Source of the DNA: a virus
DNA: 21,701 nucleotides
Virus record (IMG/VR): IMGVR_UViG_3300024288_000007
Location: 1-21,701 of that record
Strand: one strand, 5' to 3'
The notes below the pieces were generated by a model, which was given only the letters and a program-made list of their open reading frames with translations, was not told where the DNA came from and searched no databases. Each line of letters opens with the position of its first letter. The stretch's first letter is position 1. The translations under genes and the position numbers were made by a program. Of this stretch, positions 7,856-14,061 are shown one piece after another.

Positions 7856-8773
7856 TTATGATTGTTTTAATTCTAAGTCTCGATGTATTTCTATTAGGTA
7901 TTCTCGACCAGCCTCAACGTACTTTTTAATATTATCTATGTATTCGTCTTTCCATTCTATTTCATATTCAAGCAATCGTTTTTTAACTGGAATATCCGAA
8001 TAGGTCATTTCGGCCCGTATTTCTTCGCAAGCTTTTAAGAATAAAGGCGATTCCGTTAAAGGCTTACCCATCTTATACCAAATTCTATCGATCTCGCTTT
8101 GAATTAAGCTCTCTGGCGTGTCAACTAAGCAGTAGGCTACACTTCCCGACCGTGCGCCCGTTAGCCACATATAAGCGATTATTTGCCAAAAATAAATAGG
8201 GTTTAGTTTCCGTTTAAATGTTTGGTAAAATGTTCGTAAACTCCAAGAAGATTTAATGTCTGGCAATCGGGTTGCTGTATGTATTGATTCTCCCTCAAAA
8301 ATATCAGGGGTGCCTTTAATCCAGAGGTTATGTAAATGTTGCTCATTCTTTTTAAAGAACATTTTTTTAACCCTGGAATAAAGTGTAATTGATTCATCTT
8401 CTACCATATTGCCCTTGCGCACATACCGGTTTTCAATGTCGCCTTTACGTCCAGTAGTTAGAAAAATATAAACATCCATCAAATGAGTTTTCGCAGCATC
8501 TGAAAGCGTTATTTTATCCTTATTGGTAAAGAGCTCTGCTTCTAATGCTGATGCTTCTTTAAGCTTATCAGCCTTATTTAAATAGTTTTTAGAAACGGTT
8601 ACGCCATCCTTATTAAATTTAGGCATTAAGTTAAACTCATTTAATAACTTTTGATAATTATTTGCAGCATCCTGCCATTTTTCAAGATTTGATTTTTCTT
8701 TGCCTTCAGCCATTAAATATCCCAGGCTACTAGCCCGGAATAAATGTTTTTCAAATATTTTATTGTAATCCAT
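7856..8773 (-). CDS. YqaJ-like PD-(D/E)XK exonuclease
   Basis: 305 aa. The lambda-exonuclease-type fold is read from these motifs in order: RASS (13-16) near the N-terminus, an acidic GNMVEDE helix (E125), GTPD with D157, DIKSSW with D172 and K174, and a Q197-xxx-Y201 helix. D157, D172 and K174 form the PD-(D/E)XK metal site. Such enzymes chew one strand of double-stranded ends to make single-stranded tails. The gene overlaps the annealing-protein gene by 14 bases, and a nuclease plus annealase pair is the classic phage recombination module. The terminator just beyond the stop ends this transcript. Length is usual for the family. Confidence 0.8.
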   Translation of the reverse strand: MDYNKIFEKHLFRASSLGYLMAEGKEKSNLEKWQDAANNYQKLLNEFNLMPKFNKDGVTVSKNYLNKADKLKEASALEAELFTNKDKITLSDAAKTHLMDVYIFLTTGRKGDIENRYVRKGNMVEDESITLYSRVKKMFFKKNEQHLHNLWIKGTPDIFEGESIHTATRLPDIKSSWSLRTFYQTFKRKLNPIYFWQIIAYMWLTGARSGSVAYCLVDTPESLIQSEIDRIWYKMGKPLTESPLFLKACEEIRAEMTYSDIPVKKRLLEYEIEWKDEYIDNIKKYVEAGREYLIEIHRDLELKQS

Positions 8774-9665
8774 CTTTCTTTTGGTTAAATAGATCCAATA
8801 ATTCTGGCTTAACGTCTTTTTCGAGTTTGGCTAAATCTTCTTTTGTAACTGCATCATTAATCAAAATAACCATACGCTCGTTTTCGATTTGTTCTGGTGT
8901 TTTTGCTATTACTTCATCTTTTTTACCTTTAAATGCAGCCTCAACTGTTGTATCACCATCCTTAATTGCCTGTCCAATTCCAATCAATACCACTAAATCA
9001 TCCGGTGTAATGTGATCAACTGCAGCTTTTCCAATAGCAGATAAAACTTCTTTTTCGGTTAAAGTGTACGTTGACATTAATCCATCCATAACCTGTTTAC
9101 GCCTTTTAAGTAGCTTAGTTTGGTCTGAAATATCGCCGGTAATAGTTTGCTTTGCTGAATTATAAACCTTATCGACAATAGCTTTAGGGATAACAGATAA
9201 AACCGCGTTGCGTAGCGCTATAGAATTGCCTGCATTGCCCGTAACAACAATCATATCATCATTCATACGGCCCGATCTTGTCATTATTGATCGCTTAACT
9301 TCAACCTTAATAGCCACATTATTTTCAAGGTCAAAAGCAACAGCCTGGCTGGTTACGTGTTTATCGCCAACCTCAATAACTTTTGCTTCAATACGCATGT
9401 TGCCCCAGCATTGCGCTAATATCTTAGCGAGGTGAACAGATGGCCCCGTAATGGATTTGCCTCCTCGCGGCACCGAGTAAGTGCAAGTTGAAGCGGTTTC
9501 CCTGTCGATTGTTGCTGTTACGATTGCATTCTCTAGTGACCGCTTTAAATTTCTCGGAAAGGCCTTAGCTGTTGAAATTTGAACATCAACCTGCGCTTTT
9601 TCCTGTAAAAATGCTATATCGTTTCCTGATATTTGCATTACTTCTAATTCTGTGTTTTCTGACAT
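8760..9665 (-). CDS. Probable single-strand annealing recombination protein
   Basis: 301 aa. A conserved-looking core at about 50-95 holds ATIDRETASTCTY, PRGGKSITGPSVHLAKILA and WGNMRIE. It is followed by a QAVAFDLENNVAIKVEVKRSI beta section and SIALRNAVLSVIPKAIVD at about 150. This pattern occurs in phage proteins that pair with YqaJ exonucleases, and I read it as a RecT/Rad52-like annealase. The C-terminal third is helical and charged. It would coat the single strand made by the exonuclease and anneal it to a complement. Evidence for annealing is context plus family memory; I cannot verify the fold. Confidence 0.65.
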   Translation of the reverse strand: MSENTELEVMQISGNDIAFLQEKAQVDVQISTAKAFPRNLKRSLENAIVTATIDRETASTCTYSVPRGGKSITGPSVHLAKILAQCWGNMRIEAKVIEVGDKHVTSQAVAFDLENNVAIKVEVKRSIMTRSGRMNDDMIVVTGNAGNSIALRNAVLSVIPKAIVDKVYNSAKQTITGDISDQTKLLKRRKQVMDGLMSTYTLTEKEVLSAIGKAAVDHITPDDLVVLIGIGQAIKDGDTTVEAAFKGKKDEVIAKTPEQIENERMVILINDAVTKEDLAKLEKDVKPELLDLFNQKKDGLQ

Positions 9666-9853
9666 TATAATTTTGATTTTAATTGTTTGTGTTTTTCTAG
9701 AAGAAACGGCCTGATAATTTCAGTTAACGATTCATCTAAAGTATTTTTAATTTCGCTACCTATTTCGGTTTGATATTCAATTTTAGCCAAATGGTTAAGG
9801 ATCTCAAAAGTTCGCTCGATCTTCCGTAAATCGTTTTGGATTTCTAAGGACAT
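9665..9853 (-). CDS. Small helical hypothetical protein (62 aa)
   Basis: Not recognised. Almost wholly alpha-helical with heptad-like Leu/Ile spacing, so probably a coiled coil that oligomerises. It shares one base with the start of the annealing-protein gene (TAATG) and overlaps the preceding gene by 10 bases, so it is translated from the recombination transcript. Confidence 0.6.
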   Translation of the reverse strand: MSLEIQNDLRKIERTFEILNHLAKIEYQTEIGSEIKNTLDESLTEIIRPFLLEKHKQLKSKL

Positions 9854-10080
9854 TTTATTTTGTTTAAAAGATTAACTAATCCCCTTCCGGATGAAATTCC
9901 TTTACCAGAATACCAACCTGAATAAGGGAAAAACTCAATCTTATTGCCTTTAAATAAAAACATTAACCTGTTTTCATCTTCACATTGAATTTCATAACCC
10001 ATTTCCTGTATTTTTTCTTTAGCGTAAACCATTCTTTTAGGCTCTAATTGAGTTTGCCTTTCTTTATCTAATCTACTCAT
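9844..10080 (-). CDS. Conserved small phage protein (78 aa)
   Basis: A basic N-terminal helix is followed by a beta-rich part with KIEFFPYSGWYSGK and GISSGRGLVNLLNKI. The 'FPxSGWxSGKGI-GRGxxxLLxxI' arrangement is familiar from small early-region proteins of many phages, but no function is known to me. It shares one base with the upstream stop. Confidence 0.65.
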   Translation of the reverse strand: MSRLDKERQTQLEPKRMVYAKEKIQEMGYEIQCEDENRLMFLFKGNKIEFFPYSGWYSGKGISSGRGLVNLLNKIKCP

Positions 10081-10277
10081 TATGATAAAACATTTAACTG
10101 TGATTTAATTTCTTTCAGTGCCTGATCGCATACGAATATTTTCATGTCGATCAGCTCAATTTTAATGGCGTTCAGTTTGGCTGATTCCTTTTTGTTGTCA
10201 TCTGCCAAAGCTTGTATTTCAAGTTCTGTAATTGCCTTAATTCGGCTGTCGATGTATGCTAAAGTTTCCTTTGTCAT
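10080..10277 (-). CDS. Small coiled-coil hypothetical protein (65 aa)
   Basis: Not recognised. Continuous amphipathic helix rich in Lys, Glu, Ala and Ile; no cysteine pairs except one Cys near 50. Placed one base after the stop of the next upstream gene, so coupled in translation. Confidence 0.55.
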   Translation of the reverse strand: MTKETLAYIDSRIKAITELEIQALADDNKKESAKLNAIKIELIDMKIFVCDQALKEIKSQLNVLS

Positions 10278-10278
10278 T

Positions 10279-10533
10279 TTATTTAAGTTTTGATTTTATT
10301 AACGAGACTGTTTTATTGTGAAATGATAAGCAGTAATCTATACCTTTTTGATTTTCTGAAACTAAATGTATCTTCATAATCGACCTACCTTCTTTTTTAA
10401 ATATGAAAGTTTCGAATTGGAATCTTTCGCCCCAAATTTCATCGTAAAAAATAGCTGCTGTTGAAACTCTAACATTATCGTTAATCACTGTAGATGCTAT
10501 GTTAAAATTCTTTTTAAGGTTTAATCTTTCCAT
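10279..10533 (-). CDS. Hypothetical protein downstream of a structured RNA leader (84 aa)
   Basis: Not recognised. A beta-rich soluble protein (IFYDEIWGERFQFETFIF in the middle, CLSFHNKTVSLIKSKL at the end). It is the first gene after the structured RNA at 10547-10633, whose U-run ends about 14 bases before this start. If that RNA works as an attenuator, this gene and the recombination genes below it are the ones controlled. Confidence 0.6.
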   Translation of the reverse strand: MERLNLKKNFNIASTVINDNVRVSTAAIFYDEIWGERFQFETFIFKKEGRSIMKIHLVSENQKGIDYCLSFHNKTVSLIKSKLK

Positions 10534-10546
10534 TTTGTTTTAAATT

Positions 10547-10633
10547 AAAAAAGCCTCTAAAACATTTACCGCCTCGGAGTGGCAAACATTGAAAAGGCTT
10601 TAAGTGTGAGTGGTTAAGTTTCCGAGGCTAACC
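10547..10633 (-). ncRNA. Structured RNA leader or small RNA with kissing loops and terminator
   Basis: About 87 nt. Hairpin 1 pairs GGUUAG with CUUAACC (one bulge) around loop CCUCGGAAA (10619-10627). Hairpin 2 has an outer stem AAAGCCU/AGGCUUU (10595-10601 with 10550-10556) and an inner stem AUGUUUGCC/GGUAAAUGU (10581-10589 with 10562-10570, three G-U pairs) around loop ACUCCGAGGC. The two loops are complementary over seven bases (CCUCGGA with UCCGAGG). Six U residues follow hairpin 2. The first G of hairpin 1 falls at the start site predicted from the promoter. It could be a two-state attenuator for the genes from 10533 leftward or a free small RNA. It matches no RNA class I can name. Confidence 0.6.
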
Positions 10634-10638
10634 ATAGT

Positions 10639-10670
10639 CAAAGATAAGGAGGTTTGATTTGATAAGCTAA
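10639..10670 (-). promoter_or_regulatory. Bacteroidota-type promoter for the structured RNA
   Basis: TATCTTTG on the minus strand (10646-10639) is a perfect TAnnTTTG element. TTAG (10670-10667), three of four bases of TTTG, lies 20 bases upstream. Expected start about 5 bases after the element, at 10633-10634, exactly where hairpin 1 begins. Confidence 0.65.
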
Positions 10671-10691
10671 TTTGTATCTGACTTGTTACAG

Positions 10692-11345
10692 TTAGAAAAG
10701 TAATGATTGATTAACATTTTGGCTTTCAATTACCCCCATAGCTACATTTAATATTGTTCTTCCAGCTTCGTAATCAACTAAATTCCTAGCTATCTTTAAC
10801 ATTGGCTGTTTGCCTTTATATTGGCTAAAATCATAATCATGTATGCTTGATAATAATTTTAATTCATTCTTTGCTGAAGAAACAATCCCGCTTATATTTC
10901 TTGTACTTAAAACAGATGGTAGTTTAAAGTTAGTCCAGTATAAATGTCTATCCCTTTTTATCGCTGGTATTAAAGGCTCGTAGTAAGGTATTACATTTTC
11001 AACGACAAATTTACCAGTTCTGTAATAATGCTGAAGAAAAAGTATTTCTTCATATAGCTTCATGTCAGGATAAATAGCTTCTGTTGTTGTATCGTAATTT
11101 GAGCTATTCCAATATCTCGCGCGAGAATGACTAGGACAAGGTGGAGATGACCAAATAAAATCGAACTCCTTGTAATGATCTAGTAAATATTGATGTGCAT
11201 CATGAACAATTACTGTGTCATTAGGAAATCTTTCTTGGTATAATTTTGCTAACTCAGGATCTAATTCCACAGCTGTTACTTCGTGTTCATCACCCCATTT
11301 ATATCTATTCCCGCCAAGGCATGCGTAAAGGTTTAATATTTTCAT
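10692..11345 (-). CDS. C5-cytosine DNA methyltransferase
   Basis: 217 aa. AdoMet motif I is LNLYACLGGN (4-13), a Bacteroidota-phage variant of FSGxGG. Then VELDP (26-30), and catalytic motif IV SSPPCPSHS with the attacking Cys at 70. Motif VI is VVENV (114-118). A RHLYWTNF (133-140) resembles motif VIII, and ARNLVDYEAGRTILNVAMG near the C-terminus resembles motifs IX-X. It is much shorter than bacterial Dcm enzymes, with a small target-recognition region, but all catalytic motifs are present. It would methylate cytosine in phage DNA. No partner nuclease is seen, so protection from restriction is the likely role. It overlaps the gene before it by ATGA. Confidence 0.85.
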   Translation of the reverse strand: MKILNLYACLGGNRYKWGDEHEVTAVELDPELAKLYQERFPNDTVIVHDAHQYLLDHYKEFDFIWSSPPCPSHSRARYWNSSNYDTTTEAIYPDMKLYEEILFLQHYYRTGKFVVENVIPYYEPLIPAIKRDRHLYWTNFKLPSVLSTRNISGIVSSAKNELKLLSSIHDYDFSQYKGKQPMLKIARNLVDYEAGRTILNVAMGVIESQNVNQSLLF

Positions 11346-12428: not shown

Positions 12429-12650
12429 TTATGATTCTTTATTTAGTTCTTTAATTAGCGAATCTGCGGCCTCTACCGACCACCTAGCCATGCTTTCGCT
12501 ACTTGCGTTGGGTTCGGCATTACAAAATGCTTCCATAGCTTTAGCAGCAAAATATTCTCTTTTAGATAAGCCAGATTCATTTACATGCGATTCCCCATTA
12601 GCTGTAGTAAATCCATATCCAAAAGCTGATTGATTAGGTTCTGTTTTCAT
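12429..12650 (-). CDS. Small phage protein with GLxKREYFA motif (73 aa)
   Basis: Contains GLSKREYFAAKAMEAF (about 27-42) and ends with AADSLIKELNKES. The 'GLTKREYFAAMAMQG ... ADALIxEL' pattern is widespread among small early proteins of phages from many phyla. The function is unknown. Helical after residue 25; the N-terminal part is Gly/Asn-rich and probably flexible. Confidence 0.7.
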   Translation of the reverse strand: MKTEPNQSAFGYGFTTANGESHVNESGLSKREYFAAKAMEAFCNAEPNASSESMARWSVEAADSLIKELNKES

Positions 12651-13462: not shown

Positions 13463-13633
13463 ATGGATAAATTTACTGAAAACAAGCGAAAGCGTTTAGA
13501 ACGTAATCAGCGCATTAAAGAAAGATATAACAATGAAATGTTGCAAGAAGGCGCAATGAGCTCGGCTGTTATTGCTGGAATTTGCAAATCTTATCGAATG
13601 ACACCACCAACTGTTTACTCAATAATAAAATAG
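13463..13633 (+). CDS. 56-aa helix-turn-helix protein
   Basis: Too short for standard gene calling. The N-terminal half is a highly basic helix (ENKRKRLERNQRIKERY). The C-terminal half, AVIAGICKSYRMTPPTVYSIIK (35-56), fits a helix-turn-helix in which RMTPPTVYSII is the recognition helix, as in small phage and plasmid regulators. It is the first gene of the only plus-strand operon in the window, right behind its promoter. It is therefore a good candidate for the switch regulator that acts on the divergent control region. A stop-to-start distance of 2 bases links it to the nuclease-fusion gene. Confidence 0.65.
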   Translation: MDKFTENKRKRLERNQRIKERYNNEMLQEGAMSSAVIAGICKSYRMTPPTVYSIIK

Positions 13634-13635
13634 CC

Positions 13636-14061
13636 ATGGATTGTTTTATATATTCTATATCAAGCCCTTTGGATGGGGATGTTTTTTACATTGGAAAAAC
13701 TAGGAATTTTAAGGCCAGGGAAAAATCTCATGTAAATAATTCTCACAACGAGCAAACAAGAATTAAAATAAAAGAGATAATAGAATCAGGAATGATGCCT
13801 GTTTTCAATATCATTGAACAGTGCAATCAAGATGTGTCAAGTGTAATCGAGGTTAAATGGATTAAGTATTTTGAAAAAAAAGGATTTAACCTTTTTAATA
13901 AAAATAAAAATTGCTCTGATTCAAACGAAAATGAAGCTACATTTTTATTAAGGATTGATAAAGATGTTAAAGACAAAGCCGAAAAACTGGCTAAGAAATC
14001 AGATAGGTCATTTAATGGCTTTTTGAACAATTTAATTAAACTGGAGTTAGCTAAAAAGTAA
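13636..14061 (+). CDS. GIY-YIG nuclease domain fused to an Arc-type ribbon-helix-helix domain
   Basis: 141 aa from the ATG at 13636; an in-frame Met at 13582 lies inside the HTH gene and is rejected. The N-terminal part (1-85) has the GIY-YIG hallmarks: FIY (4-6), FYIG (17-20), Lys21-Thr22, a catalytic-type Arg28 with His32, and a Glu (E72) in IEVKWIKYF. The C-terminal part (about 97-140) reads as a ribbon-helix-helix: strand TFLLRID, helix KDVKDKAEKLAKK, then SFNGFLNNLIKLEL. Arc/MetJ domains bind DNA as dimers. The protein could be a site-directed nuclease or an autoregulated nickase. It is not a normal homing enzyme with NUMOD repeats. Confidence 0.75.
   Translation: MDCFIYSISSPLDGDVFYIGKTRNFKAREKSHVNNSHNEQTRIKIKEIIESGMMPVFNIIEQCNQDVSSVIEVKWIKYFEKKGFNLFNKNKNCSDSNENEATFLLRIDKDVKDKAEKLAKKSDRSFNGFLNNLIKLELAKK

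Follow-up and report, generated by a model that had tools for sequence, protein, structure and literature searches.

An apparently undescribed family of kissing-loop leader RNAs in flavobacterial phages

Organization of the locus

The window, that is, the whole 21,701-nucleotide stretch of IMG/VR virus record IMGVR_UViG_3300024288_000007 analysed here, carries on its minus strand a methylase gene that ends at 10692, followed in the same direction by a small leader element and an operon. Read directly from 10670 to 10533, this strand presents a promoter, a first hairpin, a 9-nt linker, a second hairpin, a run of six U and an ATG, and all the coordinates of the original prediction hold on this reading. 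The promoter has the TTAG-N20-TATCTTTG arrangement that had been claimed, with a −33 element TTAG (10667..10670) located 20 nt ahead of a −7 box (10639..10646) of the Bacteroidota TAnnTTTG type. Hairpin 1 (10611..10634), recognized by sequence, by folding and by the family descriptor presented below, begins 4 nt further on and would contain the 5′ end of the RNA; it is composed of TGGTTAG (10634-10628), a loop CCTCGGAAAC (10627-10618) and TTAACCA (10617-10611). The linker CUCACACUU (10602..10610), the shortest among the 59 non-redundant elements described below, leads to the terminator-like hairpin 2 (10550..10601), which has an outer stem AAAGCCUUU / AGAGGCUUU and an inner stem AUGUUUGCC / GGUAAAUGU. 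The kissing sequence of hairpin 1, GCCUCGGA (10621..10628), which also covaries in the family, corresponds to a second kissing sequence, UCCGAGGC (10571..10578), in the apex of hairpin 2: GCCTCGGA (10628-10621) and TCCGAGGC (10578-10571) are fully complementary, and the kissing pair spans 7-8 bp. The six U (10547..10552) belong to a predicted intrinsic terminator, downstream of which lies the ATG at 10533.

This ATG opens the first gene of the downstream operon (10279..10533, minus strand), encoding a protein of 84 aa without Pfam or PHROG match. The remaining operon (7856..10277, minus strand) includes a phrog_3657 protein whose homologues are annotated as RecT-like or ssDNA-binding (8760-9665) and an exonuclease gene (7856-8773). 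IMG/VR contig 3300020140_000012 (L041) is identical to window positions 10277-10900 over 624 nt and represents the same virus or a nearly identical one. Elsewhere in the window, a GIY-YIG endonuclease gene (Pfam PF01541) is present at 13582-14061 on the plus strand, opposite to the operons; a kissing-loop leader was sought upstream of this gene and was not found.

Hairpin 2 alone folds far better than its shuffled versions (z = −4.7; 0 of 200 shuffles as good), in agreement with the terminator-like hairpin running into six U that had been proposed, and the whole 88-mer gives z = −2.9. For hairpin 1 taken by itself, folding is no better than expected by chance (z = −0.44). In the window sequence alone, the match between the two loops could also have been a chance event; the relatives show otherwise.

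Relatives at homologous sites

The protein encoded at 10279-10533 has a single relative in viral contigs, which is identical, and the family was therefore approached through the neighbouring annealing-protein and methylase genes. Two contigs reached through the downstream annealing-protein gene (L004 and L005, with 94% and 86% identical protein) have the same architecture upstream of this gene, with loops CTGCAAC/GTTGCAG in both. Among contigs carrying the upstream methylase, the element lies directly behind the methylase gene in L126, with loops ACGCAAG/CTTGCGT, and in L166, with loops GTTACGG/CCGTAAC. Wholly different loops thus occupy homologous or syntenic sites with their complementarity kept, a pattern that argues for compensation and for a genuine kissing pair between the two hairpin loops, as had been suggested from the window. 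Five further records (L002, L003, L041, L125 and L205) correspond to one near-identical record and are not independent.

Single-strand folding of L004, L005 and L126 recovers the same two hairpins in each, with z-scores of −0.86, −2.66 and −2.07, respectively, so that folding energy alone would not prove each case. BLAST searches of the leader DNA against named phages gave chance matches only, because the sequence itself is not conserved. A search of viral contigs for exact copies of the window's kissing pair led, the near-identical record excepted, to unrelated contigs, which make up the 958-kb negative control used below.

Covariation of the loops and stems

Viral contigs were searched with the pattern TTTG-N(3-8)-GTAGAGTNNNNNCTACAA, which describes the end of the promoter and hairpin 1 only and selects neither for pairing between the loops nor for hairpin 2. 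Among the matches listed, 86 were unique and had enough downstream sequence, 71 with a TAnnTTTG box and 15 without. The reverse complement of GTNNNNN was present 12-95 nt downstream in 70 of the 71 box-bearing matches and in none of the 15 promoterless ones, again among the matches listed, whereas 2000 permutations of the loops among the same loci averaged 0.03 and never exceeded 1. At least 15 different kissing 7-mers occur in this pattern-selected set. The outer stem of hairpin 2 adjoins the T-run and has a mean of 6.5 Watson-Crick pairs, versus 3.6 with swapped 5′ arms, and the inner stem is built from several pair types. In a MAFFT alignment of 12 members, changes on both sides were found in 14 of 21 pairs, with a covariation score of 0.560 compared to 0.140 for shuffled and 0.032-0.096 for slid partners. 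The compensating changes to which the original prediction had looked for support are thus present in the relatives: covariation extends to the loop pair and to both the inner and the outer stem, which establishes the structure as far as computation can.

The restriction of the kissing pair to matches with a promoter bears on the possibility that the terminator only stops transcripts of the upstream operon, the kissing pair merely helping it to fold. Upstream genes are indeed often co-directional, as is the methylase here, ending at 10692, but the terminator is located after the new promoter, not before it, at a fixed spacing. We consider this explanation highly improbable.

Size and geometry of the family

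The original prediction had treated the element as a single case, and in this respect it has to be revised, since the window carries one copy of a large family. A descriptor combining hairpin 1, a complementary apex in a U-tailed hairpin, a TAnnTTTG box and an ATG within 80 nt retrieved 156 elements in 2.0 Mb of related viral sequence, compared to one in three dinucleotide shuffles; none was found in 447 kb of bacterial loci or in the 958 kb of unrelated viral loci. Among the 156 elements, 59 are non-redundant and contain 48 different kissing sequences (mode 7 bp), with all four Watson-Crick types at most kissing positions. As these sets were chosen for complementarity, the pair counts of the descriptor illustrate variety and prove no structure; the structural proof, in so far as sequences can provide it, is the pattern-selected set, in which pairing went unselected.

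In the 59 non-redundant elements, the TAnnTTTG box mostly lies 3-5 nt before hairpin 1, which supports family-wide the predicted start at this hairpin. The linker has a median length of 19 nt and is composed of 51% A and 32% T, and hairpin 1 and the second kissing sequence lie 37 nt apart (interquartile range 35-39). In each of the 59, the 8 nt behind the stem contain 5-8 T (the descriptor required at least five). The start codon follows the stem by 6-52 nt (median 16) in all accepted members, the ATG being a filter of the descriptor, and it likewise lies behind the stem in the independent pattern-selected set.

This geometry could also suit a role at the 5′ end of the message, in which a kissing rod with a paired 5′ end would protect the mRNA or shape the start of translation, the U-run being incidental. 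Hairpin 1 does start at the predicted +1, and the 19-nt median linker would accommodate such a rod together with a fully closed hairpin 2. However, the GC-rich stem base followed by U5-8 has the look of an intrinsic terminator and is kept in the pattern-selected set though not required there, which makes such a role quite unlikely in our opinion.

Several loci carry two or three leaders (L209 at 12558 and 13592, L233, L274, L291, L310 and L318), and their kissing sequences always differ. No kissing sequence was shared within one phage in 43 pairs, against a null expectation of 3.5, a weak result given that the loci were mostly chosen by one element of one type; the claim that copies in one phage avoid a shared kissing sequence was held back on account of this ascertainment.

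Distribution and downstream genes

The element is present in Flavobacterium phages of the Lillamyvirus group, where more than 30 records match one element by DNA and where stinky9-1 and hemulen6-1 have two copies each; on record MN812238 the elements lie at 12558 and 13592. It precedes a primosomal gene in Polaribacter phage P12002S and is also present in Cellulophaga phi10:1 and Flavobacterium 11b. Searches of Bacteroides B124-14, Nonlabens P12024S, Cellulophaga phi12:1, Flavobacterium 6H and the initial 50 kb of Cellulophaga phi17:2 were negative. A search of 85,000 bacterial and archaeal genomes for one subtype gave 61 occurrences of the hairpin-1 pattern, none of them with the complementary loop.

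Among 58 first downstream genes, about 14 encode NUMOD4/HNH and three GIY-YIG homing endonucleases, five encode helicases, several primase or VapE-type proteins, five replication initiators or DnaD-like loaders, one an MT-A70 methylase and one an AntA antirepressor. Flavobacteriia phages reuse one module, with its own kissing sequence in each copy, ahead of genes for replication, recombination, methylases and homing endonucleases. Small proteins that are alike by eye, about 70-80 aa long and ending near LDKxTAxxLxxEL, are a recurrent first gene behind the leader (L156:5590, L209:13734 and L133:3810, with L253:7269 and L289:1256 on the minus strand). Similarly, leaders of the GTAG hairpin-1 type are repeatedly followed by a protein of 78-79 aa that starts with MNTISVQGFKIDINHFD (L224, L234, L236, L257, L258, L263, L274, L296 and L310).

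The comparison of stinky9-1 with lillamy9-4 reveals the element and an endonuclease gene sitting together in one replaced module. This joint travel with homing-endonuclease genes could point to inverted repeats acting at the DNA level, as an operator, an origin or a homing-endonuclease target. Such a role appears scarcely credible to us, as the sequence is freely variable and the stems include G-U pairs, while the U-run is strand-specific and the order promoter-element-gene is fixed. At the site in question, lillamy9-4 has a ParB-like gene where stinky9-1 has leader and endonuclease, and at ~12780-12815 of L212 (plus strand) the sequence ahead of this ParB-like gene resembles, by eye, the DUF805b stretch of L222 (GGAAGCCGAAAA...AGAGTAGGC). 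This stretch, L222:2119-2151 (minus strand), matches Rfam DUF805b RNA (RF02914; 39.5 bits, E 4.6e-8) and is located ahead of a gene, on a phage contig that also has a kissing-loop leader.

The occurrence of one element before unrelated genes would suit a general signal, and thus a sensor, in which the internal loop of hairpin 2 would be the receptor for a protein or a small ligand, with the kissing contact as scaffold, and binding would switch termination in the manner of a riboswitch or an antiterminator. This internal loop has GA on both sides in 41 of the 59 elements, versus 16.9 expected from shuffling, and among its module types AGUA/GAA resembles a loop-E/sarcin-ricin module and GA/GA a tandem sheared pair, which we counted in favour of a sensor. 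On the other hand, three module types (UGAA/GGAU, UGAU/UGAU and AGUA/GAA) do not make a single invariant aptamer, and the window's own hairpin 2 is without a clear GA module. Moreover, a phage-encoded factor unique to carriers was sought in ten records, which shared only common methylases and replication genes. We regard a sensor as unlikely, although the enriched GA-containing internal loop may bind a factor.

A predicted transcription attenuator

Promoter, stem with U-run and start codon follow each other on one strand, which is the layout of an attenuator. As the start codon lies behind the stem in all accepted members, the gene can be reached from its own promoter by read-through only, and as the predicted transcript begins in hairpin 1, nothing would be translated before the terminator; a gene reached solely by read-through or from further upstream makes the element an attenuator by layout. 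No open reading frame of at least 50 aa was found before the terminator, and a leader peptide, as a ribosome-mediated attenuator would have, could not be accommodated before hairpin 2, because the RNA would start in hairpin 1. We consider it reasonably probable, with room for doubt, that the element is a cis-acting transcription attenuator forming the 5′ leader of the downstream operon, in which the kissing pair sets the partition between termination and read-through. The covarying fold recurs at a fixed place between promoter and start codon; we infer the start sites, termination, read-through and the sign of the kissing effect.

According to the model that we propose, RNA polymerase would start at hairpin 1, the first structure to fold. 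Its loop would pair over 7-8 bp with that of hairpin 2 after the apex of the latter has emerged from the polymerase, at a time when the outer stem is still incomplete. The outer stem and the U-run would then act as an intrinsic terminator, some transcripts stopping near 10547 and others reading through into the operon; transcript ends at 10633 and 10547 are accordingly predictions of the sequence. Because closing the terminator would shorten the linker, the kissing pair could impede its complete closure, in the manner of guanidine-IV riboswitches.

The original prediction had envisaged a competition between loop pairing and terminator, and this idea is plausible in the window, whose 9-nt linker appears too short for a kissing complex together with a fully closed hairpin 2: it spans at most ~60 Å, whereas a straight kissing complex and a closed terminator together need ~87 Å, an estimate that leaves the long inner stem of the window's hairpin 2 uncounted. 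By this geometry, the two structures exclude each other in eight of the 59 elements, window included. In the other 51, the linker is long enough for both, which we counted against exclusion as the attenuator's principle and which means that mutual exclusion is not general; in these relatives, tuning or stabilisation of the terminator may be the role of the kissing pair. Three further results were counted against the attenuator reading: the strength of the kissing pair as a duplex (mean −10.5 kcal/mol), the search for a conserved antiterminator helix joining upstream RNA to the terminator's 5′ arm, which found none (9.46 versus 9.54 shuffled), and the small comparison of carriers, which yielded no regulatory gene specific to them.

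An attenuator was one of two functions initially offered for this locus and is the one favoured by the start codon behind the stem. The other, a free small RNA, supposes that the promoter mainly yields a stable RNA of about 87 nt ending at the U-run and acting elsewhere, the downstream gene having other promoters. Its own promoter, a hairpin at the extreme 5′ end and an intrinsic terminator would fit such an RNA, but they leave its placement poorly explained, with a start codon following the terminator at a median distance of 16 nt. In addition, only structure is conserved: the sole exposed sequence is that of the loops, which are paired to one another and vary from copy to copy. A free small RNA is in our view very unlikely.

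Comparison with known RNA elements

No Rfam 15 family matched the elements at the gathering threshold, and relaxing the search to E values up to 10 gave only chance matches there. A description of the element was not found in the open-access literature that was searched. The family thus appears to be a real and widespread kissing-loop leader RNA family of flavobacterial phages, undescribed as far as Rfam and the open literature show.

Several known systems share part of its design. The guanidine-II riboswitch likewise has two hairpins joined by a kissing loop. Its loop sequences are fixed and bound to guanidinium, and no terminator hairpin is known to take part in its kiss. The HK022 put RNA and the lambda nut RNA are also promoter-proximal phage hairpins, which act on the elongating polymerase. 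Unlike in these RNAs, the second hairpin of the present element is itself terminator-like, and the two hairpins are tied by the loop pair. In T4-like phages, structured RNA is similarly present just upstream of homing-endonuclease genes (I-TevI, segB and mobE), where a hairpin hides the ribosome-binding site on early transcripts (PMC2988022). In contrast, the hairpin that separates promoter from gene in the present element is U-tailed, and core replication genes are served by the element as well.

The related known kind is that of terminator attenuators with a loop-loop switch. In the guanidine-IV (mepA) riboswitch and its Gd4v variant, two hairpins are joined by a loop-loop pair and the 3′ hairpin is a Rho-independent terminator (PMC9788692, PMC11611296), an arrangement found here as well. 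In guanidine-IV, the linker becomes shorter as the terminator stem grows, which works against the kissing loop, and formation of this loop in turn hinders the full terminator (PMC11611296, PMC9788692). Guanidine-IV and Gd4v sense guanidine, with many nucleotides in and around the loop pair highly conserved, whereas the phage element is viral, its kissing sequence is free to vary (48 versions) and no aptamer sequence is conserved; its gene context suggests no hint of guanidine.

Implications for phage gene regulation

We suggest, tentatively and with more doubt than confidence, that these leaders could form a virus-only RNA switch class, in which the same promoter-terminator leader stands on many early operons and mobile endonuclease genes, and a self-addressed kissing code, different for each copy in a genome, decides read-through, amounting to a genome-wide antitermination programme. 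The attenuator reading is directly testable in cultured Flavobacterium phages. If true, it would provide a search recipe for other hidden kissing-loop RNAs and simple orthogonal parts for Bacteroidota genetics, and it would account for the failure of sequence-based RNA surveys to detect the family. It would also add a layer of control to free-standing homing endonucleases and, more broadly, would mean that early genes in the phages of a major environmental phylum are controlled by a modular RNA attenuator that needs self-complementarity and no fixed sequence.
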